A stretch of 55,173 bases of DNA from a virus: IMG/VR virus record IMGVR_UViG_3300034095_000182, positions 1 to 55,173 of that record, one strand, 5' to 3'. Below the pieces are notes generated by a model. The model was not told the DNA's origin. It ran no database searches and saw nothing but the letters and a program-made list of their open reading frames with translations. How positions within the stretch are numbered: position 1 is the stretch's first letter; each line of letters opens with the position of its first letter. Position numbers and translations under genes: made by a program. Shown here in pieces: positions 1 through 51,514 of the stretch.

Positions 1-522
1 GGTTTGACCAACACGACCTTTGCGTTTACTGCGTTGGTCAAACCTGTCGTCTCTGGAACCTACACGCTGACAACCAGCGAAGCGCAGAATGTGATCCAAG
101 AATATGTTGGATCGCTCACGGGTAATGTGGAGGTTGTGTTCCCGCAGGTTGTGACCTTGTATGTGATCTCTAATCAGACCACCGACAACGGCTATACGCT
201 CACAATCAAGACCAGCGCTTCAGGCGCATCATCCACAACGATTCCACCGGGCCAGCAAGCAACGCTGGTGTGCGACGGCGTCAACTTCTTCAACGCCAAC
301 ACTGTGCAGGCTGGTGCAACCTCGTTGAACCTGATCAACGGCACGGTCGGAACTCCTGCGATTAACTTTGCCGCTGAGACCAGTTCGGGTATGTATCGCC
401 CCGGTGTTGGTCAAGTGGCGTTTGCAATTTTGGGAAGCCAGATCATGAACATTCTGTCGACTGGCATATCTATCACTGGTGAAGGCAAGTTCAGTGGTGG
501 CGTTAAGGGCGGGACATTCTGA
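1..522 (+). CDS. Beta-rich virion structural protein, C-terminal part (wraps around from 54324)
   Basis: This is the 3' part of a gene that starts at 54324. Joining 54324-55173 to 134-522 gives one frame of 412 residues. The visible part is rich in Thr, Ser, Gly and Val with alternating beta-strand patterns and ends shortly after a GEGKFSGG segment. I recognise no domain. It precedes the tail-hub gene with a TGATG overlap (stop 520-522, next start 522), and follows an adaptor gene, so a tail-spike, fibre or hub-associated role is likely. The first seven bases of the window are not genuine sequence of this gene. Confidence 0.75.
   Translation, partial: GLTNTTFAFTALVKPVVSGTYTLTTSEAQNVIQEYVGSLTGNVEVVFPQVVTLYVISNQTTDNGYTLTIKTSASGASSTTIPPGQQATLVCDGVNFFNANTVQAGATSLNLINGTVGTPAINFAAETSSGMYRPGVGQVAFAILGSQIMNILSTGISITGEGKFSGGVKGGTF
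8..133. repeat. Left copy of 126-bp terminal overlap
   Basis: Bases 8-133 are identical to 55048-55173, so the window closes on itself. The repeat lies in the middle of a reading frame and stays in frame across the join, which fits a circular assembly overlap of a circularly permuted genome better than a functional terminal repeat. Bases 1-7 do not match the other end. Confidence 0.95.
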
Positions 523-2513
523 TGACACAAAAAGTCTTCGCTCTCGACACCAAGCCGGGCATCCAGCGCGACGGTACGATCTTCGACAAGGAGTTCTATA
601 ACGATGGTCGATGGGTTCGTTTCCAGCGTGGCCGTCCTCGCAAAATTGCCGGGTATCGCGAGATCGTCAACGACATGGCAGGCCCATCTCGTGGCATCTA
701 TGTAATCCCAGAGAATAACTTTAACAATGTCTACAACGGCTATTCTGATGGCCTGCAACTGATCCCAATCAACAATGTGGGCATCGGCTCTGGCGTCACT
801 GATATGACGCTGTCGGACTTCACGCCCAACCAATACAACCTCTGGCAGTTTGATTCGCTCTTCGACTCTTCTGGCGGTGGTGATGAGTTGCTTGTTGTTC
901 ATCCCGGCCAGAACTTGTTGTTGATTGATAGTTCCGTCAACACCCCTGTACTTGCAGGCTCGACCTCTGGTACATCCTTTGCGGCGATTGGCGTGTTCAC
1001 TGTGGCCGCAACGCTGAACTCGACCACGACGGTAACTGTTGCAAACACCAGCCTGCTTGGCGCGGGTCAATCTATATCTGGAACTGGTATCCCTTCAGGC
1101 ACAACGATTGTGTCGGTGACCAACACTACGACCTTTGAAATCAGCGCCGCCGCAACAATCACTGGTGCCTCGACGCTGACCATTGACAACAATGTTGATG
1201 TCTCTGGTGGTGTGGTGGTCTTGCACCCCTATGTCTTTGTGTACGGCAACAACGGCTTGATCCGCAATTGCGCGGCAGGTAATCCAAACGACTGGGTCTC
1301 TGCTGACGCCAACGAGACCAATGTGGCCTCAACCAAGATCGTCAAGGGCTTGCCTGTGCGAGGCGGCTCGAATGCTCCGTCTGGCCTCTTCTGGTCTTTG
1401 GACTCACTGATCCGTGTTTCGTACAACCCGACCACCATCACCGTGGGCGGCACGCCTCAGACTTTCTACTGGCGCTACGACATCATCTCGTCTCAGTCTT
1501 CAATTCTGTCAAGCCAGTCTGTGATTGAGTATGACGGTATCTACTACTGGGCTGGTGTTGACCGCTTCCTGCTCTACAACGGTGTTGTGAAAGAGATTCC
1601 AAACACCTTCAATCAGAACTACTTCTTTGACAATCTGAACTACGATCAGCGTCAGAAGGTCTTTGCAACCAAGGTTCCTCGCTTCGGCGAAATCTGGTGG
1701 TTCTTCCCGTCCGGCAACTCGACCGAATGCAATGACTGCGTGATCTACAACATCCGCGAGAACTGCTGGTATGACCTCGGTGAAGCATTGGGCGCTCGTC
1801 GCTCGGCTGGATTCTTCTCTCAAGTGTTTCACTATCCCATCAATGCTGGATGGGAGACCAATAGTGTTGGCGGCGTGAATGCGTTTACTCTGACCTCTGG
1901 CGGTACTTTGTACACCGACGGCACCTACCTTGCGCAACCTTTAACAGGCGGCACGGGTACTGGCGCAACCGCTGACATTGTTGTTGCTGGCGGCATCGTT
2001 ACCTCTGTGACTATCGTTAACCGTGGTCAGAACTACACCGTGAGCGACATCTTGTCTGCGGCCATCCCTGCTGGTTCTGGCTTGCAGATCACTGTCAACA
2101 CATTGATGAACTTCACCAGTCTGTGGCAACACGAAATTGGCACTGACGCCGTGCAAGGCGCAACATCAAACGCCATTGAGTCTTACTTCGAGACCAATGA
2201 CCTTGGCTGGGTCTCTGGTGGCCCATCGCAACCTTCTCCCGTTGGCGAGAACCGCTGGCTTCGCATTGAGCGCGTTGAGCCTGACTTCTTGCAAACAGGG
2301 AACATGGAGTTGTACATCACAGGCCGTCCGTTTGCTCAGTCAACTGACGAGACATCCACGGCTTATGTGTTTGCGCCCAACACCAACAAGATTGACATGA
2401 AAGAACAGCGTCGCGAACTTCGTGTGAAGTTTGTCAGCAATGTGGCTGGCGGCGACTACCAACTCGGCAAGGTCTTGCTAAATGCGACCATCGGAGATGT
2501 CCGTGGCTACTAA
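522..2513 (+). CDS. P22 gp10-like tail hub / DNA-stabilisation protein
   Basis: A 663-residue protein whose opening (parameters such as GIQRDGTIFDKEFYNDGRWVRFQRGRPRK) and later blocks (IEYDGIYYWAGVDRFLLYNG; ECNDCVIYNIRENCWYDLG) match the style of podoviral packaged-DNA stabilisation proteins, which form a beta-propeller closing the portal channel. Residues about 145-235 are a Thr/Ser-rich insertion resembling an Ig-like or adhesin domain, and a second Gly-rich segment lies near 450-530. Context supports this: an adaptor gene lies just upstream across the join. The assignment is from recalled family style and context, not alignment. Confidence 0.7.
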   Translation: MTQKVFALDTKPGIQRDGTIFDKEFYNDGRWVRFQRGRPRKIAGYREIVNDMAGPSRGIYVIPENNFNNVYNGYSDGLQLIPINNVGIGSGVTDMTLSDFTPNQYNLWQFDSLFDSSGGGDELLVVHPGQNLLLIDSSVNTPVLAGSTSGTSFAAIGVFTVAATLNSTTTVTVANTSLLGAGQSISGTGIPSGTTIVSVTNTTTFEISAAATITGASTLTIDNNVDVSGGVVVLHPYVFVYGNNGLIRNCAAGNPNDWVSADANETNVASTKIVKGLPVRGGSNAPSGLFWSLDSLIRVSYNPTTITVGGTPQTFYWRYDIISSQSSILSSQSVIEYDGIYYWAGVDRFLLYNGVVKEIPNTFNQNYFFDNLNYDQRQKVFATKVPRFGEIWWFFPSGNSTECNDCVIYNIRENCWYDLGEALGARRSAGFFSQVFHYPINAGWETNSVGGVNAFTLTSGGTLYTDGTYLAQPLTGGTGTGATADIVVAGGIVTSVTIVNRGQNYTVSDILSAAIPAGSGLQITVNTLMNFTSLWQHEIGTDAVQGATSNAIESYFETNDLGWVSGGPSQPSPVGENRWLRIERVEPDFLQTGNMELYITGRPFAQSTDETSTAYVFAPNTNKIDMKEQRRELRVKFVSNVAGGDYQLGKVLLNATIGDVRGY

Positions 2514-2748
2514 TCAGTCGCTTCTCTATGACCCCCGATACCAGACATTTGAGGATTGGGCATCCCTCATGTGTGAGCAGTACGCGGCTCAACAACTCTC
2601 TATTCCAACATCCGGCACAGACTGGAAGGTATGGGGGGCTGGGCTGTTGGCGATTGATGTCTTTACAAACGAAGCGGCTCCCGATCCTTACCTGTTCGAT
2701 AACTGGCAAGACTGGGCGGCGGCTCTTTTAGCGGCGATGAATCCATGA
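2503..2748 (+). CDS. Small phage protein, possible structural component
   Basis: An 81-residue protein if it starts at GTG 2503, which has a GGAG Shine-Dalgarno sequence six bases upstream. The in-frame ATGs at 2482 and 2497 have no well-spaced site. It overlaps the tail-hub gene by 11 bases and the ACP gene by 4 (ATGA). It is Trp- and Asp-rich (WASLMCEQ, DWKVWGAG, NWQDWAAALL) with no recognised domain. It is likely co-translated with the ACP, so a link to the acyl cassette or to the tail is equally possible. Confidence 0.7.
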   Translation: MATNQSLLYDPRYQTFEDWASLMCEQYAAQQLSIPTSGTDWKVWGAGLLAIDVFTNEAAPDPYLFDNWQDWAAALLAAMNP

Positions 2749-3032
2749 CAAACTTTATTGAACTGTTCAACATGGTGTCGCAGGTTGCGCGTCCGGCTCA
2801 CGCTAAGGAAGCACCTGCAACATCCATGGAAGACAAGTTGGCAGATATAGGTATCGACAGCCTTGATGGCTTGATCATGACAATGTACTTCTGTGAACTC
2901 TACGGAATTCCAGAAGACGACGAAACCAAAGACTGGCACCCGACCTCCGTTCAGGAGGTCTTCGACTATCTGATAAGGCGTAAAACGCAAGAGCCGGAAT
3001 CACTCGAAGCGGCCCGGGAGGCAATCAAGTGA
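2745..3032 (+). CDS. Acyl carrier protein
   Basis: A 95-residue protein with the signature DIGIDSLDGLIMTMYF (residues 34-49). This matches the phosphopantetheine attachment site of acyl carrier proteins (DLGADSLD in E. coli AcpP), with Ser39 as the expected attachment residue. The following helix and acidic segment (ELYGIPEDDETKDW) and the helix-IV-like VQEVFDYLIRR also fit. The N-terminus is about 10-15 residues longer than in AcpP. It overlaps the upstream gene (ATGA at 2745) and the downstream ketosynthase (3029) by 4 bases each, so the two are translationally coupled. It would carry acyl intermediates in the cytoplasm after modification by a host phosphopantetheinyl transferase. None is seen in this window. 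Confidence 0.88.
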   Translation: MTNFIELFNMVSQVARPAHAKEAPATSMEDKLADIGIDSLDGLIMTMYFCELYGIPEDDETKDWHPTSVQEVFDYLIRRKTQEPESLEAAREAIK

Positions 3033-4144
3033 TCTACCTCACCCACTACCGTACAGCGGCCACATCGAATGTGGAACTCTTCGAGGACATCGTGTTCCCC
3101 CAGCGGGTTCACTGGTTCCCCGAGACCTACAACCGCACGCAGACCGGGATGTTTTATGTCCCGCACAAACTGGCCGAGAAGGTGCTTGACGCCGACCTCA
3201 TCAAATATCTGCGTGAGAACCAAGTCGGCAAGACGGCGTTCATCCTCGCTGGTGGCAACGCTCACTTTGCCGGGATCGGTCAGAGGGCATACAACAGCCG
3301 CCTGACCTACACCTACAAGTTCCTGCCCTTCACGCTGACTCAGGTTTACGCTGGTCGTACCGCTCAGTCTTTTGGCGACATGGACTTGGTGACCACCGAT
3401 GCGTCTGCCTGCGCCAGCAGTCTGAAAGTCATGATGGATGTCGAGGTGTTGATGAAGCACTACGGCTTTGAGCGTGTGATTGTCCTGACGGTTGAAGACG
3501 GTGTGTCAAACGCTGTTCTTGAGTTCTTTGGCGAGTCCCGTGCTGTTTTGACGGCCAAGGAAGAGAACGAGACCGGGGTTAAGCCTTCGGCATTCGACAG
3601 CAAGAATCGCGGCTTCTATGTCGGTCAGGGCGCCGCCTTGGCGATCTTTGAAAGCGAGTGGGCTGTCAACAAACTGAACCGTGACCCTCTGGCTCGTCTT
3701 GTAGGGGCCTACAGCGCCTCTGAGGCATCTACCAATGCCATCGGTCAATGTGAGGACGGTCAGGGCTTTACGAAGGCTATAGAGGGCACCTTGCGCTACA
3801 GCGGAGCATTGCGTCAGGACATCAAGATTGTCAAAGCGCACGGCACCGGAACCGAGTCAAACAACAAAGCAGAGAAGGCCGCAATCATGAGCGCGGGCCT
3901 TACAGATTTTGTCGTGACCTCTTACAAACAAAAAATAGGTCACACAATGGGTTCCTCTGGACTGCTGGAATCATTATTATTGCTGGAGGACATGAAAAAG
4001 GGATTCGTTCCTCCAATCGAAAATCGAACCGAATCCGATTCGGTTTTCTTGTCGGAACCGACAAAGCCCCCCAAAGGGTTGGTGCTGAGTCTGGCGGCTG
4101 GGATGGGCAACATCTACAGCGCCGCAATATTTGAGGGGCTATGA
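3029..4144 (+). CDS. Beta-ketoacyl-ACP synthase (condensing enzyme)
   Basis: A 371-residue thiolase-fold condensing enzyme. The nucleophile Cys128 lies in TTDASACASSL, the first His in KAHGTGTES (His271), and the Lys/His pair in YKQKIGHTMGSSG (Lys300, His305) with the same five-residue spacing as in E. coli FabF. All catalytic residues for Claisen condensation of acyl and malonyl-ACP are therefore present. It is shorter than FabF (about 410), and the usual GFGGTN tail motif reads AAGMGN, so the acyl-pocket gate differs. GTG/ATG choice: ATG-like start at 3029 within the overlap ATGA/GTGA of the ACP stop. It is cotranscribed with virion genes, so expression is probably late. Confidence 0.9.
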   Translation: MIYLTHYRTAATSNVELFEDIVFPQRVHWFPETYNRTQTGMFYVPHKLAEKVLDADLIKYLRENQVGKTAFILAGGNAHFAGIGQRAYNSRLTYTYKFLPFTLTQVYAGRTAQSFGDMDLVTTDASACASSLKVMMDVEVLMKHYGFERVIVLTVEDGVSNAVLEFFGESRAVLTAKEENETGVKPSAFDSKNRGFYVGQGAALAIFESEWAVNKLNRDPLARLVGAYSASEASTNAIGQCEDGQGFTKAIEGTLRYSGALRQDIKIVKAHGTGTESNNKAEKAAIMSAGLTDFVVTSYKQKIGHTMGSSGLLESLLLLEDMKKGFVPPIENRTESDSVFLSEPTKPPKGLVLSLAAGMGNIYSAAIFEGL

Positions 4145-4145
4145 G

Positions 4146-4589
4146 ATGCTGGTAAATAGTAAAGAAAAACAACTTGGTGAGCAGGCGATCCTGATGATTG
4201 CCGCTGAAGAGACCAAGTCAAAATATTCCGCCGCGCAGGTGTACGCCGCGCTGGTTGCCGAGATGAATCTGCGTGGCACGACCACCTATCGCGCTGGCAA
4301 CACTATTTTCATGATGCATCACGCCAAGGGCCGTGTGGGGACTTTCCGCGCCCTCAATGCTGACACCGCACGCAACTATCTGGAGAACTCCTACGAGTTC
4401 ATTCAAGCCGCATACAAGATGGGTTTTGACACTCTGGTGACCGAGTTTGAAGACCCGACCATCATCAACATTTTCAAGGCCATCTCCCGCAACCCTCCCC
4501 GGGATCAAATGGGCTACAAGGCCGAGAGAACCAATAAGGGCTTCCGCGTTACTGTGAAACTCGGCCCGAAGCGGGAGGATAAAGAATGA
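4146..4589 (+). CDS. Unknown phage protein, possibly GNAT-like acyltransferase
   Basis: A 147-residue protein. ATG 4146 is chosen because AGGGG at 4134-4138 gives a seven-base spacing. The second half alternates strands and helices (TIFMMH, GRVGTFRALNADT, YEFIQAAYKMGFDTLV, then MGYKAERTNKGFRVTVKLG), reminiscent of the GNAT acyltransferase fold in phage proteins of this size. No acetyl-CoA loop of the classical R/Q-x-x-G-x-G/A type is visible, so the assignment is weak. Its place directly after ACP and ketosynthase makes an acyl-ACP user imaginable, but it also directly precedes ejection-protein genes. It overlaps the next gene by 4 bases. Confidence 0.55.
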   Translation: MLVNSKEKQLGEQAILMIAAEETKSKYSAAQVYAALVAEMNLRGTTTYRAGNTIFMMHHAKGRVGTFRALNADTARNYLENSYEFIQAAYKMGFDTLVTEFEDPTIINIFKAISRNPPRDQMGYKAERTNKGFRVTVKLGPKREDKE

Positions 4590-6457
4590 GTGCAGTCGTA
4601 AGTTTTGTTGCGGATGTTGTTGAGACCGTTGTCGACGCAGTCGGTGATGTCGTTGAGACTGTTGCTGATGTCGTTGAAGACGCCGTTGAGTTCGTCGGCG
4701 ACACCGTTCAGGCCATCGTTGAAGACCCGCTTCCAACGCTGTTGTCTATTGCTGGCTCGTTTGTAGGCATTCCCCCGCCCGTGACCATGGCCGCTGTGAC
4801 TGCGGCTCGTGGCGGTGACCTTGAAGACATCGTGCTGTCTGCTGGTGTTTCGTACTTTGCGCCACAAGCAAGTAATGTTCTGTCGTCCACATTGTCGTCA
4901 ACCATTGGCGGTTCAATCATCAATCAAACCGTGTCCGACATCGTCGTTGATGGCGTGAGCAAGGGCCTTGTAAGCGGCACCATTGCAGAGATTCGCGGCG
5001 GAGATTTTGAGGATGGCTTTGCTGGTGGCTTTACTGGCTCTATTGTGAACTCCTCTGTTGGTGAGTTCACCAATGAATTTATTGCGCCCGGCGTGCAAGA
5101 TATGCTGTCCGATTCTGGTTTGGATACCAGCACCATTAACACTATTGTGAAGACGGGCACGCAGGCTGTGTCTTCTGGATTGACTGCTGAGTTGACTGGC
5201 CGTGGCGACTTTGATGATGCATTCATCAACAGCGTGCAGAACTCTACGATTAACCTTGGCACGAACTACGCCGTCAACACGATTGGTGAGCAGTTCCGTT
5301 CTGTTGAGCAAGGTCTCAGCACCGTTCAAAAAGAAGAAGACAAAGAAAGTGATCTGCTGAATTTTGACGATTACTTTGCGCTCGATACAACTCGCGACTC
5401 TGACGCTACTGGCGCTGGCATCTCTGATGATATTGTTGATCAAGTTGAAGTTGCCGATCTTGGCGACAACACCGGAAATGTCACCAGCACTCTGGCAAAC
5501 ACAGACCTGTCGACATCGTTTGATACGCAACTAGATACGGAGTTGGCCTCATACGGCACAGACACTGGGTCAAGCCTTGGATCAACTTCCAATGTCGACA
5601 CATTGATGGCCGACACTGACGCAAGCGAGATCATTGATGAGTTTGGCGGCGAGGACACCGATGGCGACGGCGCAACCGTTACCGTTGAAGGATTGCCGTC
5701 TGATCTTGAAGACATCTACGAACAGTATGCGTTTGACACTACTGAGGATGATGAGGCAGTTGATACTGCGGATACCACTCCAAGGATTGAACTGGCTGAC
5801 GCAACCGCAGGACAAGACACATCTGGCGGCTTAAATGTTGTAAAGAAGGCTGTCGAGACGCCAGCCAACTTGACGGAAGAGGACATTGTGTTCTCTGGCG
5901 GCAAAGCAGACATCGATGCAGAAGATAGTCTTGTTGACACATCGCAAGTTGCAAGCGCCAAGAAGACAACCGCTGTTGATCCTTATGCTGGTCTGGATGA
6001 GAACATCACCAACCTTGCTGAAGACAGCACTGTTGACATCGCTGGTCGCTCAGGCCCAACCATCATTGATGGCGGCTTGAATGTTCTAAATGACATTGCG
6101 GGCCGTACTGGTCTGGTTGATAGCGGCGGCGGCATCTCTACCGACAAGTTAGTCACTGGTGCATTGAATCAGTTCTTGCGCCCAGCAATTAAGTCTGGCC
6201 TGACCAAAGTAATCAAGGGCAAGCCAACAAAGACTCTTGTCAAGAGGCCAGTGCAGAAGAAAGCGCCGCTTACTGCATTGCAGGCTCAACAAGCGCGTGG
6301 GGCAACTAAACAGCCGCCGAAAACGATTGACATGACCAAGGTTGCAAGCAGACCCGTCACCAAGGTTGCGCCACCTAAGAAGGTCGATGTCAAGACGCTG
6401 ACGCCGATCACCAATGTGGCAAGTCTTTCTTCGATTCTGTCTGGCGGCAAAGGATAA
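4586..6457 (+). CDS. Putative internal virion protein with N-terminal amphipathic repeats
   Basis: A 623-residue protein. Residues 4-45 are built of Val/Asp/Glu 11-residue repeats (VVETVVDAVGD, VVETVADVVED), forming a strongly amphipathic helix like LEA or apolipoprotein repeats. A Gly/Ser-rich, weakly hydrophobic stretch (about 60-230) follows, then an acidic Asp/Thr-rich linker (about 260-420) and a basic Lys/Pro-rich tail (about 520-623). There is no catalytic motif. Its position in a block of large proteins ending with a murein hydrolase suggests a protein packaged in the head and ejected with DNA, where the amphipathic helix could contact the membrane. Function is inferred from context. 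Confidence 0.7.
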   Translation: MSAVVSFVADVVETVVDAVGDVVETVADVVEDAVEFVGDTVQAIVEDPLPTLLSIAGSFVGIPPPVTMAAVTAARGGDLEDIVLSAGVSYFAPQASNVLSSTLSSTIGGSIINQTVSDIVVDGVSKGLVSGTIAEIRGGDFEDGFAGGFTGSIVNSSVGEFTNEFIAPGVQDMLSDSGLDTSTINTIVKTGTQAVSSGLTAELTGRGDFDDAFINSVQNSTINLGTNYAVNTIGEQFRSVEQGLSTVQKEEDKESDLLNFDDYFALDTTRDSDATGAGISDDIVDQVEVADLGDNTGNVTSTLANTDLSTSFDTQLDTELASYGTDTGSSLGSTSNVDTLMADTDASEIIDEFGGEDTDGDGATVTVEGLPSDLEDIYEQYAFDTTEDDEAVDTADTTPRIELADATAGQDTSGGLNVVKKAVETPANLTEEDIVFSGGKADIDAEDSLVDTSQVASAKKTTAVDPYAGLDENITNLAEDSTVDIAGRSGPTIIDGGLNVLNDIAGRTGLVDSGGGISTDKLVTGALNQFLRPAIKSGLTKVIKGKPTKTLVKRPVQKKAPLTALQAQQARGATKQPPKTIDMTKVASRPVTKVAPPKKVDVKTLTPITNVASLSSILSGGKG

Positions 6458-9745
<3,288 letters not shown>

Positions 9746-24735: not shown

Positions 24736-25593
24736 ATGTACCAATATGCCCGTTCTGCAAACCAGACTTCCTTCCGCTCCAACGCTCCTTTGAGCAACGA
24801 GCAAATTGCCCAGTACGCACCCAGCGTGTTGGCTGAGACCGCCCACGAATCCCGTGGTGAGCGCTACACCTTCATCCCCACCATCCAAGTTCTGGACGGC
24901 CTGCGCAATGAAGGCTTCCAGCCCTTCGAGGTTCGTCAGACCCGCGTCAAGGATCAGTCCCGCCGCGAGTTCACCAAGCACATGGTGCGCCTGCGTCACG
25001 CCACCAGCATCGAGGCCGCTGTCGGTGAAGAAGTGCCCGAGATCGTGCTGATCAACAGCCACGACGGCTCCTCGTCCTACCAGTTGCTGGCCGGGTTCTT
25101 TCGCATGGTCTGCTCCAACGGCCTGATCGCTGGCGACATCTGCAACGACATCCGCGTGCGCCACTCCGGAAATGTGATCGACGATGTGATCGAGGGTTCG
25201 TTCCGCGTTCTCGACAATGTCGAGGAGATCGGCTCCCGCATCGAGACCTACAAGGCCATCGAACTCAAGCCCGAAGAGCAGTCGCTGTTCGCCAACGCCG
25301 CCCTGCAATTGCGTTGGGACGACAAGGCCCCCGTCGAGGCTGACCGCATCCTGCGTGCCCGCCGCTGGCAGGACAACAAGACCGACCTCTGGACGACCTT
25401 CAACCGCGTGCAGGAGAACATGATCAAAGGTGGTGTGGCTGGCCGCTCCGCTACTGGTCGCCGTATGTCCACCCGCGCTGTCGGTGGCGTCAATGAGAAT
25501 GTCAAGTTGAACCGCGCCCTCTGGACGCTGGCTGACGGCTTGGCCCAACTCAAGCAGGGCGTCGTGGACATCGAGGAACTGGTGGCCGCTTAA
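24736..25593 (+). CDS. DUF932 phage/plasmid-like protein
   Basis: A 285-residue protein of the DUF932 family, recognised by ETAHESRGERYTFIPTIQVL, FEVRQTRVKD, LLINSHDGSSSYQLLAGFFR-like text (IVLINSHDGSSSYQLLAGFF) and the N-G-L-I-A/G cluster. Members are frequent in phages and plasmids; their biochemical role is not settled. It is the first gene behind promoter copy 2 and is followed by a strong UACG hairpin, suggesting high expression. Codon use is GC-rich. Confidence 0.88.
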   Translation: MYQYARSANQTSFRSNAPLSNEQIAQYAPSVLAETAHESRGERYTFIPTIQVLDGLRNEGFQPFEVRQTRVKDQSRREFTKHMVRLRHATSIEAAVGEEVPEIVLINSHDGSSSYQLLAGFFRMVCSNGLIAGDICNDIRVRHSGNVIDDVIEGSFRVLDNVEEIGSRIETYKAIELKPEEQSLFANAALQLRWDDKAPVEADRILRARRWQDNKTDLWTTFNRVQENMIKGGVAGRSATGRRMSTRAVGGVNENVKLNRALWTLADGLAQLKQGVVDIEELVAA

Positions 25594-27193: not shown

Positions 27194-27778
27194 ATGCCTG
27201 AAACTGCCAGCAAACCGCGCAAAGCGCCTCAGAAGGCCGTGAAGCCCACCAAAGCAGGTGGAAGTACCAGCGCACCCCAAAAACCCGCCAAAGCCCCGAA
27301 AAAGACCCTCATCGGTCGTCCTACCAAGTACGACACCAACATCGCTTCCGAGATATGCGTAAGGCTCAGTAATGGAGAGCCATTGAGACAGATATGCATG
27401 GAAGACGATATGCCAGCGCAGTCGACGGTTTATCTCTGGTTGACGCGCCACCCTGACTTTTCGGAGATGTACGCACGCGCACGCGACGAGCAGGCCGACA
27501 CGCTGGCTGACCAGATCATCGCCATCGCCGACGAGATGCCGATGGAGACGACTGACAAGGACGGGAATACCAAATTCGACTCTGCCTACATTCAATGGCA
27601 GAGAAGCCGGGTTGACGCCCGCAAGTGGGTAGCGGCCAAACTCAAGCCCCGCAAGTACGGTGACCGCGTGGCGGTTGAGGGTACAGAGGATGGCGCCCCG
27701 ATCAAGACCGAGGACACCGGGTCAAGCCGCCTCTTCGAGTTGATCAAGAACATGGAGATGGCAAAGCGTGCTGGTTGA
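27194..27778 (+). CDS. terS: Terminase small subunit (Sf6-type)
   Basis: A 194-residue protein. After a Lys/Pro/Ala-rich N-terminal tail (1-35), residues 38-170 carry GRPTKYDTNIASEICVRLSN, the helix-turn-helix LRQICMEDDMPAQSTVYLWL, RARDEQADTLADQIIAIADE and RVDARKWVAAKLKPRKYGD. This is the order of the Sf6-type small terminase. It recognises the packaging site and feeds DNA to TerL. It overlaps terL by 11 bases. Confidence 0.9.
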   Translation: MPETASKPRKAPQKAVKPTKAGGSTSAPQKPAKAPKKTLIGRPTKYDTNIASEICVRLSNGEPLRQICMEDDMPAQSTVYLWLTRHPDFSEMYARARDEQADTLADQIIAIADEMPMETTDKDGNTKFDSAYIQWQRSRVDARKWVAAKLKPRKYGDRVAVEGTEDGAPIKTEDTGSSRLFELIKNMEMAKRAG

Positions 27779-29174
27779 ACACCTCGACGAAGAACTGGCC
27801 CGGGAGTTCGATGCCGAATCGCCCGAGAACCAGATCGCCGTCTTGGCTCACGCTGAATGGGTGGCTGGCGCCCACCGCTACCAGATACCGCCCCCGCTGG
27901 AGATCGATTACACCGTCTGGATGATGCTGGCTGGCCGGGGTGCAGGTAAGACCCGGAGCGCCGCTGAGGCCCTGTGGTGGTGGGCATGGATCACGCCCGG
28001 CTCTCGCTGTCTCGTGCTGGCCCCTACATCGAACGATGTGAAGTTCACTTGCTTCGAGGGTCAGTCTGGCCTGCTGTCAGTGATCCCGCAGGAACTGATC
28101 GTCGACTACAACAAGCAAGACCATCAGATCAAACTGATCAACGGCTCCATCATCCGGGGTATCTCAGCCGACTCATACGAGCGTCTGCGCGGCCCGCAGT
28201 GGCACTTCGCATGGTGTGACGAGTTGGCCGCATTCACCTACCTGCAAGAGGCGTGGGACATGATGATGTTCGGTCTGCGTCTGGGTGATCAGCCCCGCGT
28301 GATCGTGACCACGACACCGCGCCCGAAGGACTTGATCCTCGACCTCGTTGGCCGGGAAGGTGACGATGTCATCATTGACCGCGCCAGCACATACGAGAAC
28401 GCCGCCAACCTCGCTGAGAACTTCTCCAAGCAGTTGGAGCAGTACAAGGGTTCGAAGTTGTACCAGCAAGAGGTGCTGGGCGAGATCGTCGACCTCGAAG
28501 ACGGCAAGGTCGTGGGGCGCGATATGTTCAAACTGTGGCCCGCCAACAAGGCGTTCCCCAAGTTCGAGTTCATCATCCAGTCGTATGACTGCGCCTTCTC
28601 TGAGAAGACCTACAACGACCCGACGGCTATGACCACATGGGGCGTGTTCAAGCCCATGGACGGCCCAATGTCTGTCCTGCTGATCGACTGCTGGGCCGAG
28701 CATCTCGACTTCCCCCGGCTGAAGCCCCGCGTGCTGGATGAGTGGCGCGTCTCTTACGGTGAAGGCAAGGACGCCAAGCGACCCGACCTGATCATCGTGG
28801 AGGACAAGGCCGCAGGCATCTCGCTCATTCAGGAGTTGCGTCACGCCCACCTGCCTGTGATCCCATGGAACCCGGGCAAGGCCGACAAGATGCAACGCCT
28901 CCAGATCACCGCATCCATCTTTGCGACTGGCCGTGTCTGGTTGCCTGAGAGCGGTGTACGCAAGGGATATGTGAAGGACTGGGCCGAAGGGTTCCTGAGT
29001 CAGTTGTGTTCGTTCCCCGACTCATCGCATGACGACTATGTCGATAGCGCTACGCAAGCGATTCGATACCTCAAAGACGCGGGATGGCTAGATATAAATC
29101 CCGAGCCTCGTTATGATGATGATGATGATTACTTTGACGCCATGCCGAAGCGCGTCAATCCATACGCGGCGTGA
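27768..29174 (+). CDS. terL: Terminase large subunit
   Basis: A 468-residue packaging motor with GTG start at 27768 inside the end of terS and GGAG ten bases upstream. Walker A is LAGRGAGKT (Lys61), Walker B is HFAWCDE (about 143-149), and coupling motif VTTTPRP. The RNase H-fold nuclease is indicated by SYDCAF (near 273), IIVEDKAAG (near 344) and SHDDYVDS (near 421). It cuts concatemeric DNA and pumps it into the prohead. Near the end is a (GAT)5 run encoding Asp residues. TerL type with TerS suggests headful packaging. Confidence 0.95.
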   Translation: MLVEHLDEELAREFDAESPENQIAVLAHAEWVAGAHRYQIPPPLEIDYTVWMMLAGRGAGKTRSAAEALWWWAWITPGSRCLVLAPTSNDVKFTCFEGQSGLLSVIPQELIVDYNKQDHQIKLINGSIIRGISADSYERLRGPQWHFAWCDELAAFTYLQEAWDMMMFGLRLGDQPRVIVTTTPRPKDLILDLVGREGDDVIIDRASTYENAANLAENFSKQLEQYKGSKLYQQEVLGEIVDLEDGKVVGRDMFKLWPANKAFPKFEFIIQSYDCAFSEKTYNDPTAMTTWGVFKPMDGPMSVLLIDCWAEHLDFPRLKPRVLDEWRVSYGEGKDAKRPDLIIVEDKAAGISLIQELRHAHLPVIPWNPGKADKMQRLQITASIFATGRVWLPESGVRKGYVKDWAEGFLSQLCSFPDSSHDDYVDSATQAIRYLKDAGWLDINPEPRYDDDDDYFDAMPKRVNPYAA

Positions 29175-35940: not shown

Positions 35941-36122
35941 GGTATGTATCCGACTTCATTGGCGCTGTAAAAGCGCGTAGAGCCGAGATCGCCGAGTCGA
36001 TTGCCGCAGGCAACTGCGTCAACTTCGAGTCGTATCAGAGGCTGGTCGGTCAACTTCAGGGCCTTGAAGAAGCCCTTGTAATCCTTAACAACCTATTGAA
36101 GGAAGAAGAAGATGACAACTAA
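35937..36122 (+). CDS. Small helical hypothetical protein
   Basis: A 61-residue protein (RYVSDFIGAVKARRAEIAES; YQRLVGQLQGLEEALVILNN), a two-helix hairpin as often found between portal and scaffold genes of podoviruses. It overlaps the GroES-like gene by 11 bases. Confidence 0.75.
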   Translation: MRYVSDFIGAVKARRAEIAESIAAGNCVNFESYQRLVGQLQGLEEALVILNNLLKEEEDDN

Positions 36123-36537
36123 ACCGGAAGCGGGTAATGCCGCTGACATCGCTTGGGCATTTCCGAGCGTCGACCCCGGTGCCAAGCCCCTTGGTGGGCG
36201 AGTTTTGGTGCAACTGCGCCGCACAAAGAAAACTGTGACGAGTGCCGGGATTATTTTGGTCGAAGAGACCAAGGAAACCGAGAAGTGGAACAACATGGTC
36301 GCCAAAGTGATCGAGAACGGGCCTCTTGCTTTCAAGAAGCGCGACTCGATGGAGCCGTGGCCCGAGGGTTCATGGTGTGAGCCGGGCGACTACATCCGCG
36401 TCCCCAAGTGGGGCGGAGACCGTTGGGAGGTCGAGGTGGGTGACGAGGAAGAAAAAGCCTTGTTCATGATCCTCAATGACCACGAAATCATCGCCAAAGT
36501 CACTGGCGATCCACTTCAAATGAGGGCATTCGTATGA
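36112..36537 (+). CDS. GroES-like co-chaperonin (Cpn10)
   Basis: A 141-residue protein. PLGGRVLVQLRRTKKTVTSAGIILVEE holds the first strand and mobile loop of Cpn10 (the loop is TKKTVTSAGIIL), followed by VAKVIENGPLAF and WCEPGDYIRVPKWGGDRWEV, the usual G(D/E)xV strand. It is longer than GroES (97) because of N- and C-terminal extensions. It probably caps host GroEL to fold the capsid protein, as T4 gp31 does. It lies within the head gene cluster and overlaps the scaffold gene by 4 bases. Confidence 0.88.
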   Translation: MTTKPEAGNAADIAWAFPSVDPGAKPLGGRVLVQLRRTKKTVTSAGIILVEETKETEKWNNMVAKVIENGPLAFKKRDSMEPWPEGSWCEPGDYIRVPKWGGDRWEVEVGDEEEKALFMILNDHEIIAKVTGDPLQMRAFV

Positions 36538-47186: not shown

Positions 47187-48227
47187 ATGGCACAAAGCGG
47201 CTACACCCCAATTCAGTTGTACTTCAGTACGACTCCAAGTGCGGTTCCGACTGCTGGCAACCTTGCTGACGGCGAACTTGCAATCAACATCGTCGATGGC
47301 AAGTTGTACTACAAGGACAATACCGGAACGGTTCGTCTTCTGGCTTCTCAGAGTGACCTGACGACGATCAGTTTTGGCACTACTGGCCTGACTCCATCGA
47401 CCGCTACTGGCGGCGCTGTAACCGTGGCCGGAACTCTGGTGGCTGGTAACGGCGGTACGGGAATCAACTCGTACAACGGCGGTGACATCCTTTACGCGAC
47501 TGGCTCGACAACTCTTGCTCGTCTTGGTATCGGCACAAACGGCCAGATCATCACATCCAACGGCACTGTGCCTCAGTGGACTTCTGGCTCGTCAATCTCT
47601 GTTGGCACGGCCACAAACCTTGCTGGTGGTTCTGCCGGGTCTCTGCCTTATCAATCCGGAGCAGGTGCAACAACCTTCTTGTCGATTGGTTCTGCAAACC
47701 GTGTTTTGACCTCGACTGGCTCTGCCCCTCAGTGGTCGACCGATCTGTCGATTGGCGCCCTGACTGCATCGAGCGACTCCGCTTTTACATCGACCGGGGC
47801 TTTGACAATCAGCAAGGGTACGACAGCACAGCGGCCCGGATCGGCTGTCAGCGGTATGTTCCGCTTCAATACATCAGACAGCGCTTTTGAGGGCTACAAC
47901 GGTTCTGCTTGGACTTCTGTCGGCGGCATCACGCTTGCAAACGATACGACCACTGCATCCAACCTGTATATGCTCTTTAGCGCGTCTACAAGCGGTGCGG
48001 TTTCAACGCAGTATGTGTCTTCGACCAAACTGCTTTATCGTCCTTCTGACGGTCAATTGACTGCGCCGGAGATGTACGCAAGCAATGGTGTATTGACTCA
48101 TGCTAATCAGGTGACTTCAAATTACACTGTTCCAACAAATGCAAATGTGATTACTGTTGGCCCGTGGACTGTTGCATCCGGCGCATCGTTCACGCTTCCA
48201 TCTGGAAGCCGTCAGGTATTGCTATAA
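47187..48227 (+). CDS. Tail fibre protein
   Basis: A 346-residue protein. The opening (YTPIQLYFSTTPSAVPTAGN; LADGELAINIVDGKLYYKDN) is a classic phage fibre N-terminus. Middle repeats (LAGGSAGSLPYQSGAGATTF; SANRVLTSTGSAPQWS) resemble those of the preceding fibre. Near the end GTTAQRPGSAVSGMFRFNTS is the shared module seen at the start of the next Gly-rich proteins. A fibre with a knob-like C-terminus is likely. Confidence 0.82.
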   Translation: MAQSGYTPIQLYFSTTPSAVPTAGNLADGELAINIVDGKLYYKDNTGTVRLLASQSDLTTISFGTTGLTPSTATGGAVTVAGTLVAGNGGTGINSYNGGDILYATGSTTLARLGIGTNGQIITSNGTVPQWTSGSSISVGTATNLAGGSAGSLPYQSGAGATTFLSIGSANRVLTSTGSAPQWSTDLSIGALTASSDSAFTSTGALTISKGTTAQRPGSAVSGMFRFNTSDSAFEGYNGSAWTSVGGITLANDTTTASNLYMLFSASTSGAVSTQYVSSTKLLYRPSDGQLTAPEMYASNGVLTHANQVTSNYTVPTNANVITVGPWTVASGASFTLPSGSRQVLL

Positions 48228-48239
48228 GAGGAAAAGAAC

Positions 48240-49331
48240 ATGAGTGAAATTCGAGCAGGCACTACGACCACAACGGCGCTGACTTCAACTGGCGACACGA
48301 CGGGTAATCTCGTTCTGACGCCAGATTCCGGTATTGCAACAATTAACGGAACTGGTGCGCTTACGATTGCAAAAGGCACAACCGCGCAACGCCCCGGCTC
48401 TCCGGTTACTGGTATGCAACGATTCAACACTACACTTGGTTATCCGGAGTGGTATGACGGCGCAACTTGGCAAGCAATTCAGCAGTCAGTATATGCTATT
48501 GATTATCTGGTGGTTGCGGGTGGCGGCGGCGGTGGTGGAGCAGGGCCAGCAAACGCCGGAGGCGGCGGCGGCGGAGCAGGAGGCTATATTGCCTCGTCAT
48601 ACTCATCAGTTCTACAGGGCACTTCTTACTCAATCACAATTGGGGCTGGCGGCGCTGGCGGAAACTCATCAAACGACAATAAAACATCTGTTTCTGGGTC
48701 AAATTCTTCTTTGATAGGAACAGGAATTAGCCAAACTGCGATTGGCGGAGGTTCTGCTCCAAACAGTAACAACACTTATAACGGCGCCGACAGAAATGGT
48801 GGTTCTGGCGCCGGAGGCTCTGGTAACCCAAATTCATCGACAGGTTTCCCGGGTTCAGGAACTTCGGGCCAAGGCAACTCTGGAGGAACATCTGACTACG
48901 CCACAAATTATGGTGGCGGCGGGGGAGGTGGTGCTGGCGCCGTCGGGGGAAATGCAACTTCTACAACAGCGGGAAATGGCGGAAATGGCCTAGATTGGCA
49001 ATCTCTTGGAACCTTTTACGCTGGTGGTGGCGGCGGTGGTTTATACAATTCTTCGTCATATTCTTCCGGAGGGTCGGGTGGCGGCGGTGCTGGTAGCGGA
49101 AATAACACTGGTTCTGCCGCTCCTTCAGGCACAGCGAACAGAGGTGGTGGCGGAGGAGGTAATGCAGGAGCGGCTGGCGGCGGTGGTGGCGGAAACGCCG
49201 GGGGCGCGGGCGGCTCCGGTATCGTAATCATTCGCTACGCAGGTTCTCAGCGTGGCACGGGAGGCACAGTGACCTCTGTTGGCGGCTACACCTACCACAC
49301 CTTCACAACCAGTGGCACCTACACGGCATAA
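48240..49331 (+). CDS. Glycine-rich fibre/adhesin, paralogue 1
   Basis: A 363-residue protein. Residues 1-80 hold the fibre module (TAQRPGSPVTGMQRFNTT; YPEWYDGATWQA). Residues 85-330 are strongly glycine-rich (GGGGGGAGG patterns with Asn and Ser), as in PG-II-type tip adhesins of T4-like phages such as S16 gp38. The conserved end is GSGIVIIRYAGSQRGTGGTV then YHTFTTSGTYTA. It is the first of three tandem paralogues of about 360 residues and likely binds the host surface. Confidence 0.8.
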   Translation: MSEIRAGTTTTTALTSTGDTTGNLVLTPDSGIATINGTGALTIAKGTTAQRPGSPVTGMQRFNTTLGYPEWYDGATWQAIQQSVYAIDYLVVAGGGGGGGAGPANAGGGGGGAGGYIASSYSSVLQGTSYSITIGAGGAGGNSSNDNKTSVSGSNSSLIGTGISQTAIGGGSAPNSNNTYNGADRNGGSGAGGSGNPNSSTGFPGSGTSGQGNSGGTSDYATNYGGGGGGGAGAVGGNATSTTAGNGGNGLDWQSLGTFYAGGGGGGLYNSSSYSSGGSGGGGAGSGNNTGSAAPSGTANRGGGGGGNAGAAGGGGGGNAGGAGGSGIVIIRYAGSQRGTGGTVTSVGGYTYHTFTTSGTYTA

Positions 49332-49345
49332 GAGGGAAAAAGAAT

Positions 49346-50419
49346 ATGACATCAATCATCAAAGCAGACGACGGAGTTGTATCCGGCGTCACTGGTATAA
49401 CCAGCAACGCTGACAACACTGGCACGCTTGAGTTGCAAGCGACGAGTGGTCTAGTCAACATGAACAATGTGACGGGCGCACTGGCTTTGCCAGCAGGAAC
49501 AACTGCACAGCGCCCTGCAAGCCCGATAAATGGACAACAGCGCTACAACACCTCAACAAATGTTGTTGAGGTTTATGTAAATGGTTCTTGGGTAACTGTT
49601 ACGACATCAACTCCTACCTACACTGCTAATTACCTTGTTGTTGCTGGCGGTGGTTCTGGTGGTGGCATTAACTCTGGTGGCGGTGGTGGCGCGGGCGGAT
49701 TGTTGACAGGAACAGCAACTTTTACCCCTTCTACAGCATACTCAGTAGTAGTTGGAGCAGGAGCGTCTGGAACATCGAGTGCGGTGCAAGGCTCAAACGG
49801 CTCCAATTCAACTCTAGGAACATTGGTTAACGGCTCAACTGGCGCAGTTGGTGGAGGCGGGGGCGGTAGCAACGAGTTGTCTAGCAGTTCTGCTAATAGA
49901 AATGGCTTGTCTGGCGGTTCTGGCGGAGGCGGTTCTTATAACGCAGGTAATGGCGGATCAGGGACTGCTGGTCAGGGAAATGCTGGTGGCGCAGGAAGCG
50001 GTAGTGTCGGTGCCGGGGGCGGTGGCGGAGGCGCAGGCGCAATAGGCTCAACTCCCGGAGGAGTTCCGGGTGGCGATGGCGGCGCAGGAACTGCATCAAG
50101 CATATCTGGCTCTTCTGTTACATACGCTGGTGGCGGAGGCGGAGGCGCTAATGGTGGCAGTGGAGGAACTGGCGGCGCTGGCGGTGGTGGCAATGGAGGT
50201 TTTTCGACAACTACATCCGCAACCAGCGGAACAGCAAACACTGGCGGAGGTGGTGGCGGAGCGGGCGCTTCTGGCACAACGCCGTTATCTGGAAATGGTG
50301 GCTCTGGGATTGTGATTATTTCTTACGCTGGTGCCCAACGGGGCACGGGCGGAACGGTCACTTCCGCTGGCGGAAACACAATCCACACCTTCACCACTTC
50401 TGGAACATACACCGCATAA
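49346..50419 (+). CDS. Glycine-rich fibre/adhesin, paralogue 2
   Basis: A 357-residue protein with the same layout as its neighbours: TTAQRPASPINGQQRYNTST module, then YLVVAGGGSGGGINSGG, glycine-rich core (about 100-320), and the ending GGTVTSAGGNTIHTFTTSGT. The core sequence differs strongly from paralogue 1. GAGGGAAAAAGAATATG at its start has a weak ribosome-binding site, so its level may depend on coupling to paralogue 1. Confidence 0.8.
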   Translation: MTSIIKADDGVVSGVTGITSNADNTGTLELQATSGLVNMNNVTGALALPAGTTAQRPASPINGQQRYNTSTNVVEVYVNGSWVTVTTSTPTYTANYLVVAGGGSGGGINSGGGGGAGGLLTGTATFTPSTAYSVVVGAGASGTSSAVQGSNGSNSTLGTLVNGSTGAVGGGGGGSNELSSSSANRNGLSGGSGGGGSYNAGNGGSGTAGQGNAGGAGSGSVGAGGGGGGAGAIGSTPGGVPGGDGGAGTASSISGSSVTYAGGGGGGANGGSGGTGGAGGGGNGGFSTTTSATSGTANTGGGGGGAGASGTTPLSGNGGSGIVIISYAGAQRGTGGTVTSAGGNTIHTFTTSGTYTA

Positions 50420-50431
50420 GGAGAAAAGAAT

Positions 50432-51514
50432 ATGGCACAAATTTTCAGCGGCACAGACGGAACGACTCCATCGTCATGGACGACGGCGGGGCGTCCAACT
50501 TCGCCTGCAAACGGCCAGTTTGGTCTGAACACCACCCTCAATCAGATGGAGTGGTACAGCACCACATCTGGGTCATGGATTCCATTTAGTGACCCAACTC
50601 AATATTCCGTTCAATACATAGTTGTTGCTGGCGGTGGCGCCGGAGGCATGGGGCAAACTGCTGGTGCCGCTGGCGGCGGAGCGGGTGGTTATCGCTCTTC
50701 AGTGACTGGAGAATCATCCGGGGGAGGTGGCTCTGCCGAATCCGCTTTAACCCTAACTCCCGGAACTACTTATACGGTAACTGTTGGTGCTGGCGGTTCT
50801 GGTTCTGCCAGTGCGGGTCAAAACGGAGCAAACGGAAGTAATTCTGTTTTTTCAACCATTACATCGATTGGCGGTGGTGGTGGACAGGGTTATGTATCCA
50901 CATCTGGCGGCACAGCCCCTTCTGGCGGTTGCGGCGGAGGTGGTGGCGCTCAAAACGGTTTAGGCGGGGCAGGAACTACTAATCAGGGATACGCTGGAGG
51001 AAATGGTAATGGAGGCGCCGACAATTACCCCGGTGGTGGCGGGGGTGGTGCCGGAGCAATCGGTCAAACATCTCCAGCGGCAAATAACGGCAAGGCTGGT
51101 GCGGGCGGGGTTGGTGTGCAGTCCAACATTGATGGAAACAATTACTACTATTCTGGTGGTGGTGGTGGTGGTGGTTACCAATCTGGAAACGGCGGTGGAA
51201 ACGGCGGTCTTGGCGGCGGCGGTGGTGGATCAACCGAGATTGGCGCAGGGGGAACTGGAGGTGGCTCTGCAAGGAACAGTGGTCAAGCAGGTGGCACCCT
51301 TAGTGGTGGTGCCAACCTATCCGCCGGAGGCGCAAACACTGGCGGTGGCGGTGGCGCTGGATATGTCACTCTTTCTGGAACCGCTGGCAACGGCGGCTCT
51401 GGCATTGTGATTATTCGCTACGCTGGCACGCAACGCGGCACTGGTGGAACCGTTACATCTTCCGGTGGATATACCGTCCACACATTCACTTCATCTAGCA
51501 CTTACACTGCTTAA
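50432..51514 (+). CDS. Glycine-rich fibre/adhesin, paralogue 3
   Basis: A 360-residue protein: module PSSWTTAGRPTSPANGQFGL with NQMEWYSTTSGSWIPF, then VQYIVVAGGGAGGMGQTAG, glycine-rich core and the ending GTQRGTGGTVTSSGGYTVHT. AAGGAGAAAAG gives a strong start. Conserved ends and a divergent core suggest recombination or rapid change of the binding core. Confidence 0.8.
   Translation: MAQIFSGTDGTTPSSWTTAGRPTSPANGQFGLNTTLNQMEWYSTTSGSWIPFSDPTQYSVQYIVVAGGGAGGMGQTAGAAGGGAGGYRSSVTGESSGGGGSAESALTLTPGTTYTVTVGAGGSGSASAGQNGANGSNSVFSTITSIGGGGGQGYVSTSGGTAPSGGCGGGGGAQNGLGGAGTTNQGYAGGNGNGGADNYPGGGGGGAGAIGQTSPAANNGKAGAGGVGVQSNIDGNNYYYSGGGGGGGYQSGNGGGNGGLGGGGGGSTEIGAGGTGGGSARNSGQAGGTLSGGANLSAGGANTGGGGGAGYVTLSGTAGNGGSGIVIIRYAGTQRGTGGTVTSSGGYTVHTFTSSSTYTA

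Follow-up and report, generated by a model that had tools for sequence, protein, structure and literature searches.

A phage-encoded acyl carrier protein and condensing enzyme linked to a GNAT-fold protein in a virion operon

The window analysed here is the whole 55,173-nucleotide stretch of IMG/VR virus record IMGVR_UViG_3300034095_000182 (positions 1 to 55,173). Between a stabilization protein and ejection-type proteins it encodes an acyl carrier protein (ACP) and a beta-ketoacyl-ACP synthase-like condensing enzyme (KAS), followed by a third cassette member that we refer to as orf3. The features of the locus are as follows:

522..2513, + strand: stabilization protein, P22 gp10-like, forming the left flank (PHROG 3287, E=8e-23; the homologue in MW202545 is annotated as phage stabilization protein)
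2497..2748, + strand: small acidic protein of 88 aa, upstream of the cassette
2745..2748, + strand: ATGA, 4-base overlap of the small protein and ACP genes, read from the sequence
2745..3032, + strand: ACP, 95 aa, with a DSLD site (Ser39 codon AGC at 2859-2861)
3029..3032, + strand: GTGA, 4-base overlap of the ACP and KAS genes, retained in nearly all relatives
3029..4144, + strand: KAS, 371 aa, with a GTG start (Cys128 codon at 3410-3412)
4146..4589, + strand: orf3, GNAT-fold and acyltransferase-like by AlphaFold and Foldseek, assigned to the cassette by its linkage to KAS
4586..6457, + strand: ejection-type (internal virion) protein of 623 aa, directly downstream of orf3

An earlier, sequence-only reading of this DNA had described the ACP-KAS pair and its 4-base overlaps, both of which are present, and that part of its cassette stands; it overlooked orf3, whose association with the pair proves to be the closest of any gene. 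The orf3 start is placed at ATG 4146, one base past the KAS stop, because relatives begin M-L-V-D-S-K there, and a start at 4131 is therefore not conserved. The small protein is 33% identical over 66 aa (E=2e-11) to a 78-aa protein of Caulobacter phage GB2A, and we regard it as the left edge of the insertion because its homologue adjoins the stabilization protein in phages lacking ACP and KAS as well. The base composition of the ACP and KAS genes matches that of the remainder of the window.

Assignment of the ACP to the PP-binding carriers draws on its DSL serine and on a family profile, which when compared with the PDB has solved ACPs as its top matches and almost its only ones (2lol, E=6.4e-5, with the alignment covering the DSLD site). 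Single-sequence Pfam matches are weak: the window ACP alone has none, and PF00550 is matched weakly by nine of 16 relatives, with a best E of 0.0033. Ser39 is a serine in all 126 distinct relatives, in keeping with the intact DSL site originally proposed. Acidic residues in helix II of AcpP contact the host fatty acid synthesis (FAS) enzymes, and in an alignment the phage ACP has hydrophobic or variable residues at those positions.

The KAS matches both halves of the ketoacyl synthase domain in Pfam (Ketoacyl-synt_C, E=6.4e-16, 58.9 bits; ketoacyl-synt, E=2.1e-6, 28 bits), each above the curated cut-off of 20.8 bits for PF00109 and PF02801, and its best PDB sequence match is FabF of S. pneumoniae (E=2.4e-21). 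An AlphaFold model (pLDDT 80, pTM 0.85, with low confidence for residues 78-101) was compared with known structures using Foldseek, which returned KasA, FabF and type II PKS ketosynthases at E values of about 1e-20 and TM scores of 0.72-0.80; the match to KasA (E=7.2e-22, TM 0.79) places the 371-residue protein in the thiolase fold, a check that the sequence-only reading had called for. Cys128, His271, Lys300 and His305, which it had named as an intact catalytic set, align with the catalytic Cys, His, Lys and His of E. coli FabF and do not vary among the 110-113 distinct KAS proteins that have letters at those positions. Pairwise dN/dS values of 0.02-0.15 for ACP, KAS and orf3, and of 0.02-0.12 for the ACP-KAS pair, indicate strong purifying selection, and because the active-site residues are invariant and dN/dS is low we conclude that KAS is kept for catalysis; condensing activity itself is predicted from the active site and fold. 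The same two observations rule out a decayed or non-catalytic pair, and chance is excluded as the source of the ACP-KAS observation.

The KAS is related to the FabF/KasA (KAS I/II) enzymes by its thiolase fold, its Cys-His-His plus Lys set and the adjacent ACP gene, as in acpP-fabF, but it is shorter (371 aa), divergent at the N-terminus and accompanied by no other fab genes. Against the FabF equivalog TIGR03150 it scores 103.1 bits, far below the cut-off of 493.75, and judged by its sequence it is not a FabF equivalog. The gate Phe of FabF, in the GFGGTN loop, is replaced by Met359, which is invariant in 113 of 113 distinct relatives. The protein belongs to PHROGs family phrog_35856, which is listed as function unknown.

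A query with one protein identified 48 viral loci, and a profile query confirmed at least 590 stretches, the analysis continuing with the best 80; with KAS, ACP and orf3 as baits there are at least 128 distinct ACP/KAS junctions. Counts of loci given here refer to the best matches listed, in which several contigs appear as two loci. The carriers are hundreds of uncultured phage contigs, mostly from freshwater. The ACP and KAS genes invariably neighbour each other, in most cases with the identical 4-base overlap, and are split only at contig ends, so the conserved linkage in related phages for which the sequence-only reading had looked is found. With either as bait the other is always present, contig ends apart, and the trio is nearly complete throughout, missing ACP or orf3 genes being accounted for by contig ends except in a lineage of bog phages. 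When orf3 is the bait, KAS lies upstream in all loci listed, and among these no orf3 of the ACP-KAS-plus type was found without KAS. Among 84,980 prokaryote genomes there is one relative, a phage-like contig carrying the trio in a Balneolaceae MAG, and besides this contig one ordinary FabF-type match. Contamination by bacterial fab DNA is ruled out by the phage genes that surround the pair in the viral loci read, by the base composition and by the virus-specific family; most low-identity matches in the phage collection (H2-H16) are unannotated and resemble bacterial DNA, and were left out.

Only one annotated phage, MW202545, is a close relative with the same gene order, and all close relatives of the window phage are uncultured. 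The nearest cultured relatives infect Caulobacter, and sequence comparisons hint at an alphaproteobacterial host. Among cultured phages, the large terminase (27768-29174) and the stabilization protein are closest to those of Caulobacter phages GB2A, RW, RLK and KcrB (about 43%). A GroES/Cpn10-like protein (36112-36537; PF00166, E=3.5e-7) is encoded just before the capsid genes of the window and at the same place in MW202545.

The sequence-only reading had supposed that the phage relies on partner enzymes of the host, and the gene content agrees with this: a search of the window and of 17 related phage records, with controls behaving as expected, gave no ACPS-type phosphopantetheinyl transferase (PPTase) or short-chain reductase, and the window contains no FabD-type acyltransferase (malonyl-transferase) domain. 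Lacking PPTase and reductase genes of its own, the phage must have its ACP charged by enzymes of the host. Decarboxylation of malonyl-ACP is within the reach of FabF-type enzymes, and a carrier with a condensing enzyme but with none of these partner genes could act as a malonyl sink, draining or decarboxylating malonyl-ACP, or competing for phosphopantetheine, and thereby slowing host lipid synthesis. We consider such a takeover quite improbable, as the catalytic set of KAS is complete including the lysine and the position in the virion operon of most phages would be late for a takeover.

No family could be found for orf3 by sequence in Pfam, PHROGs or PDB searches, and known acyltransferases including RtxC gave no Pfam or PDB sequence match. 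The AlphaFold model has a pLDDT of 92.6, and Foldseek returned 19 PDB matches at E<=0.001, all of them acetyltransferases with TM scores of about 0.44-0.56, the best being GNAT acetyltransferases at E values of 3e-4 to 1e-3; unnamed phage proteins are closer structural matches than the GNAT entries of the PDB. On the basis of this model we are confident that orf3 has a GNAT fold and is acyltransferase-like. The CoA pyrophosphate loop, [QR]xxGx[GA], is absent throughout 116 of 120 orf3 proteins of ACP-KAS-plus phages and present in four, and several polar residues are conserved. Directly downstream, the family of the 623-aa ejection-type protein is preceded by orf3 in 80 of 80 loci among the matches listed when the start of that protein is the bait.

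The position of orf3 raises the question of whether it is a virion morphogenesis factor comparable to T7 gp13, possibly non-enzymatic, with ACP and KAS as merely historical neighbours. In cobaviruses a GNAT gene, pc40, stands beside the internal virion proteins and has been compared with T7 gp13 (PMC6775973); like orf3 these genes lie between tail and ejection genes, and pc40 shares the GNAT fold, although ACP and KAS are lacking there. Proteins annotated as acetyltransferases occupy the same operon position in DB2 and MW202879, again without ACP and KAS. However, orf3 has no sequence relationship to T7 gp13 (PF11090; hhalign probability 0.3%), and homology to the DB2 and MW202879 proteins is not supported by profile comparison. 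Its subfamily also switches with ACP-KAS, as described below, and together with the conserved polar residues this leads us to regard a morphogenesis factor as improbable. Profile comparison shows no similarity to orf3 for annotated acetyltransferases at this operon position without ACP and KAS, as at L299:8263-8619 and L301:7121-7495.

Acyl-ACP is the substrate of GNAT-like enzymes such as LuxI-type and N-acyl amino acid synthases, and the fold of orf3 would fit such an activity, with ACP, KAS and orf3 making a small acylated amine (LuxI-like or FeeM-like) for signalling between phages or between phage and host. But the trio has no linked gene for a receptor or regulator, and in the search with the ejection-type protein as bait orf3 always lies directly before that protein, even where ACP and KAS are absent, which makes signal synthesis a remote prospect.

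The members of the cassette can be found apart. In the search with the 623-aa protein as bait, orf3 and the ejection-type protein occur without ACP and KAS in 10 of the 80 loci listed, and orf3 is therefore not always dependent on the pair. In the ACP-KAS-minus loci read, the slot separating the small protein from orf3 is either empty or, in L368, holds a gene for a predicted metal-dependent hydrolase (L368:2279-2977; PF10118, E=8e-40); metabolic genes can thus be accommodated at this site upstream of orf3. Caulobacter phage GB2A, whose stabilization protein, small protein and downstream proteins are homologous to those of the window, has no ACP, KAS, orf3 or recognisable 623-aa protein, and there the stabilization protein, the small protein and a homologue of the 6461-9745 product follow one another. 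In the window, 6461-9745 encodes a 1094-aa protein containing GTGTKTG and acidic repeats in long low-complexity stretches, and only the C-terminus of this protein matches tape-measure families and GB2A. In freshwater bog phages (L038-L040, L209-L211 and L213) ACP and KAS lie between a SNF2 helicase and other replication-type genes with no orf3 nearby; orf3 is thus not required for the pair to be of use, and the virion-operon position reported for the pair holds in the window and in most phages but not in this lineage. These dissociations therefore indicate two couples, ACP with KAS and orf3 with the ejection-type protein, that usually travel together.

The type of orf3 nevertheless follows the presence of ACP and KAS. 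Stabilization proteins of ACP-KAS-minus relatives are 62-73% identical to that of the window, similar to the 61-79% of plus relatives outside the nearest kin, whereas identity of orf3 is 31-34% in minus relatives against 42-77% in those plus relatives and 42-95% in all plus phages compared. Six minus phages form one clade in the orf3 tree (SH-aLRT 99), but the stabilization protein tree rejects this clade (AU p about 1e-55) and places L378 among plus phages; this conflict implies that ACP-KAS presence and orf3 type move together, the changes in presence numbering two on the orf3 tree and three on the stabilization tree, which are small counts. A histidine following GNTxFxx in orf3 is found in 118 of 120 proteins from plus phages versus one of seven from minus phages (L001 and L036 lack it, and L380 has it), a correlation that few independent events underlie. 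From these sequences, the coupling could be functional or mere linkage.

These patterns bear on whether ACP and KAS are a general lipid auxiliary metabolic module that supplements or redirects host fatty acid elongation, for membrane supply or chain length, in a slot for metabolic genes and with no special link to orf3. The unrelated hydrolase in the L368 slot, the bog-lineage pair without orf3, the acpP-fabF gene order that is identical in E. coli, and reports of lone phage ACPs (PMC5463345, PMC11705849) and of fabF in viromes and a pelagimyophage (PMC10653327, PMC7029224) are all consistent with this. We nonetheless think it somewhat unlikely, given that the orf3 subfamily tracks the pair across independent backbones, that no plus-type orf3 without KAS occurs among the loci listed, and that helix II of the phage ACP has hydrophobic or variable residues in place of the acidic ones used by the host enzymes.

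We tentatively propose, at rather less than an even chance, that the locus is a phage-dedicated supply of acyl-ACP for orf3, an acyltransferase-like protein of the virion operon. Such a supply is favoured by the invariant catalytic residues, the purifying selection on all three genes and the adjacency of ACP and KAS; by the linkage of orf3 to KAS, its GNAT fold mostly without a CoA loop and the tracking of ACP-KAS by its type; and by the absence of PPTase and reductase genes from the 17 related phages. Against it stand the bog-lineage pair without orf3, the ten orf3 loci without the pair, and the lack of sequence similarity of orf3 to any known acyltransferase or to T7 gp13; adjacency alone can also cause co-transfer. 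In the proposed scheme a host phosphopantetheinyl transferase would load the arm onto Ser39 of the phage ACP, with malonyl and acyl groups supplied by the host malonyl transferase and FAS enzymes. KAS would take an acyl group onto Cys128 and condense it with malonyl on the partner ACP through His271, His305 and Lys300, giving a beta-ketoacyl-ACP that the host might reduce, and orf3 would then pass the acyl chain carried by the phage ACP on to an amine.

The best candidate acceptor would be the adjacent 623-aa ejection-type protein or another virion protein, modified much as a toxin is acylated by HlyC-type enzymes with acyl-ACP as donor, and a lipidated ejection protein would aid DNA delivery across the cell membrane. 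That a custom acyl chain, made by virus-specific ACP and KAS, is attached by orf3 to the ejection protein to give a lipid-modified DNA-delivery machine is doubtful at present. The ejection-type protein begins M-[S/G/A] in 94 of 95 cases, and M-[S/G/A]-A-V is striking in ACP-KAS-plus phages. An N-terminal acylation signal was rejected as specific evidence, a small residue 2 being found also in minus phages, and the M-[S/G] N-terminus is not specific because those phages share it. The phage GNAT Rac of phiKMV-like phages acts on the host, triggering cleavage of the RNA polymerase alpha subunit (PMC7552054), and caution is therefore needed in assigning a virion target to orf3. Lysis and envelope change, which the sequence-only reading had offered as purposes of the acyl chain, are not supported, as nothing found here shows either.

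Several known systems resemble parts of the cassette. GNAT-like RtxC enzymes have been reviewed as lacking CoA elements and using acyl-ACP (PMC8339906), and RtxC and HlyC share with orf3 the GNAT-like fold, the missing usual CoA loop, a gene directly upstream of the presumed acceptor and acyl-ACP as proposed donor; they differ in that orf3 has no sequence similarity to them, its donor and acceptor are putative, and HlyC uses the host ACP. Lone phage ACPs (PHROG 5934, as in Erythrobacter phage R6L and Alteromonas phage R22Y), and the ACP encoded together with ACPS in two MED4-infecting myoviruses (PMC3037559), have the DSL serine, but the window-type ACP always accompanies KAS, as a rule together with orf3, lies in the virion operon in most cases and has no ACPS. 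Predicted prophages of Rhodobacteraceae carry fabG-acpP-fabF clusters (PMC8224337) in which acpP likewise adjoins fabF, but such clusters keep fabG and the bacterial fab order, whereas the phage cassette has no fabG and its KAS belongs to a distinct, virus-specific family (phrog_35856). No account of a virus-specific ACP and KAS pair accompanied by a GNAT-fold protein in a virion operon was found in the open-access literature.

Phage ACPs and virome fabF genes have previously been listed as auxiliary metabolic genes with an unclear role, and an inseparable, strongly selected pair tied to orf3 before an ejection protein narrows this to a specific question that has a small number of possible answers. 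Acylation of a virion protein, if it occurs, would be viral protein lipidation from virus-made acyl-ACP, and would hint in chemical terms at the way short-tailed phages form a channel for their DNA across the cell envelope.

Two other regions of the window deserve mention. A DUF932 protein (24736-25593, E=1.4e-49) is encoded among the genes upstream of the terminase. At 47187-51514 lie four ORFs in a row, each of 346-363 aa, with short stretches of about 40 aa that closely resemble one another, and the C-termini of three of the four are 84-87% identical, forming a mosaic tail fibre array.
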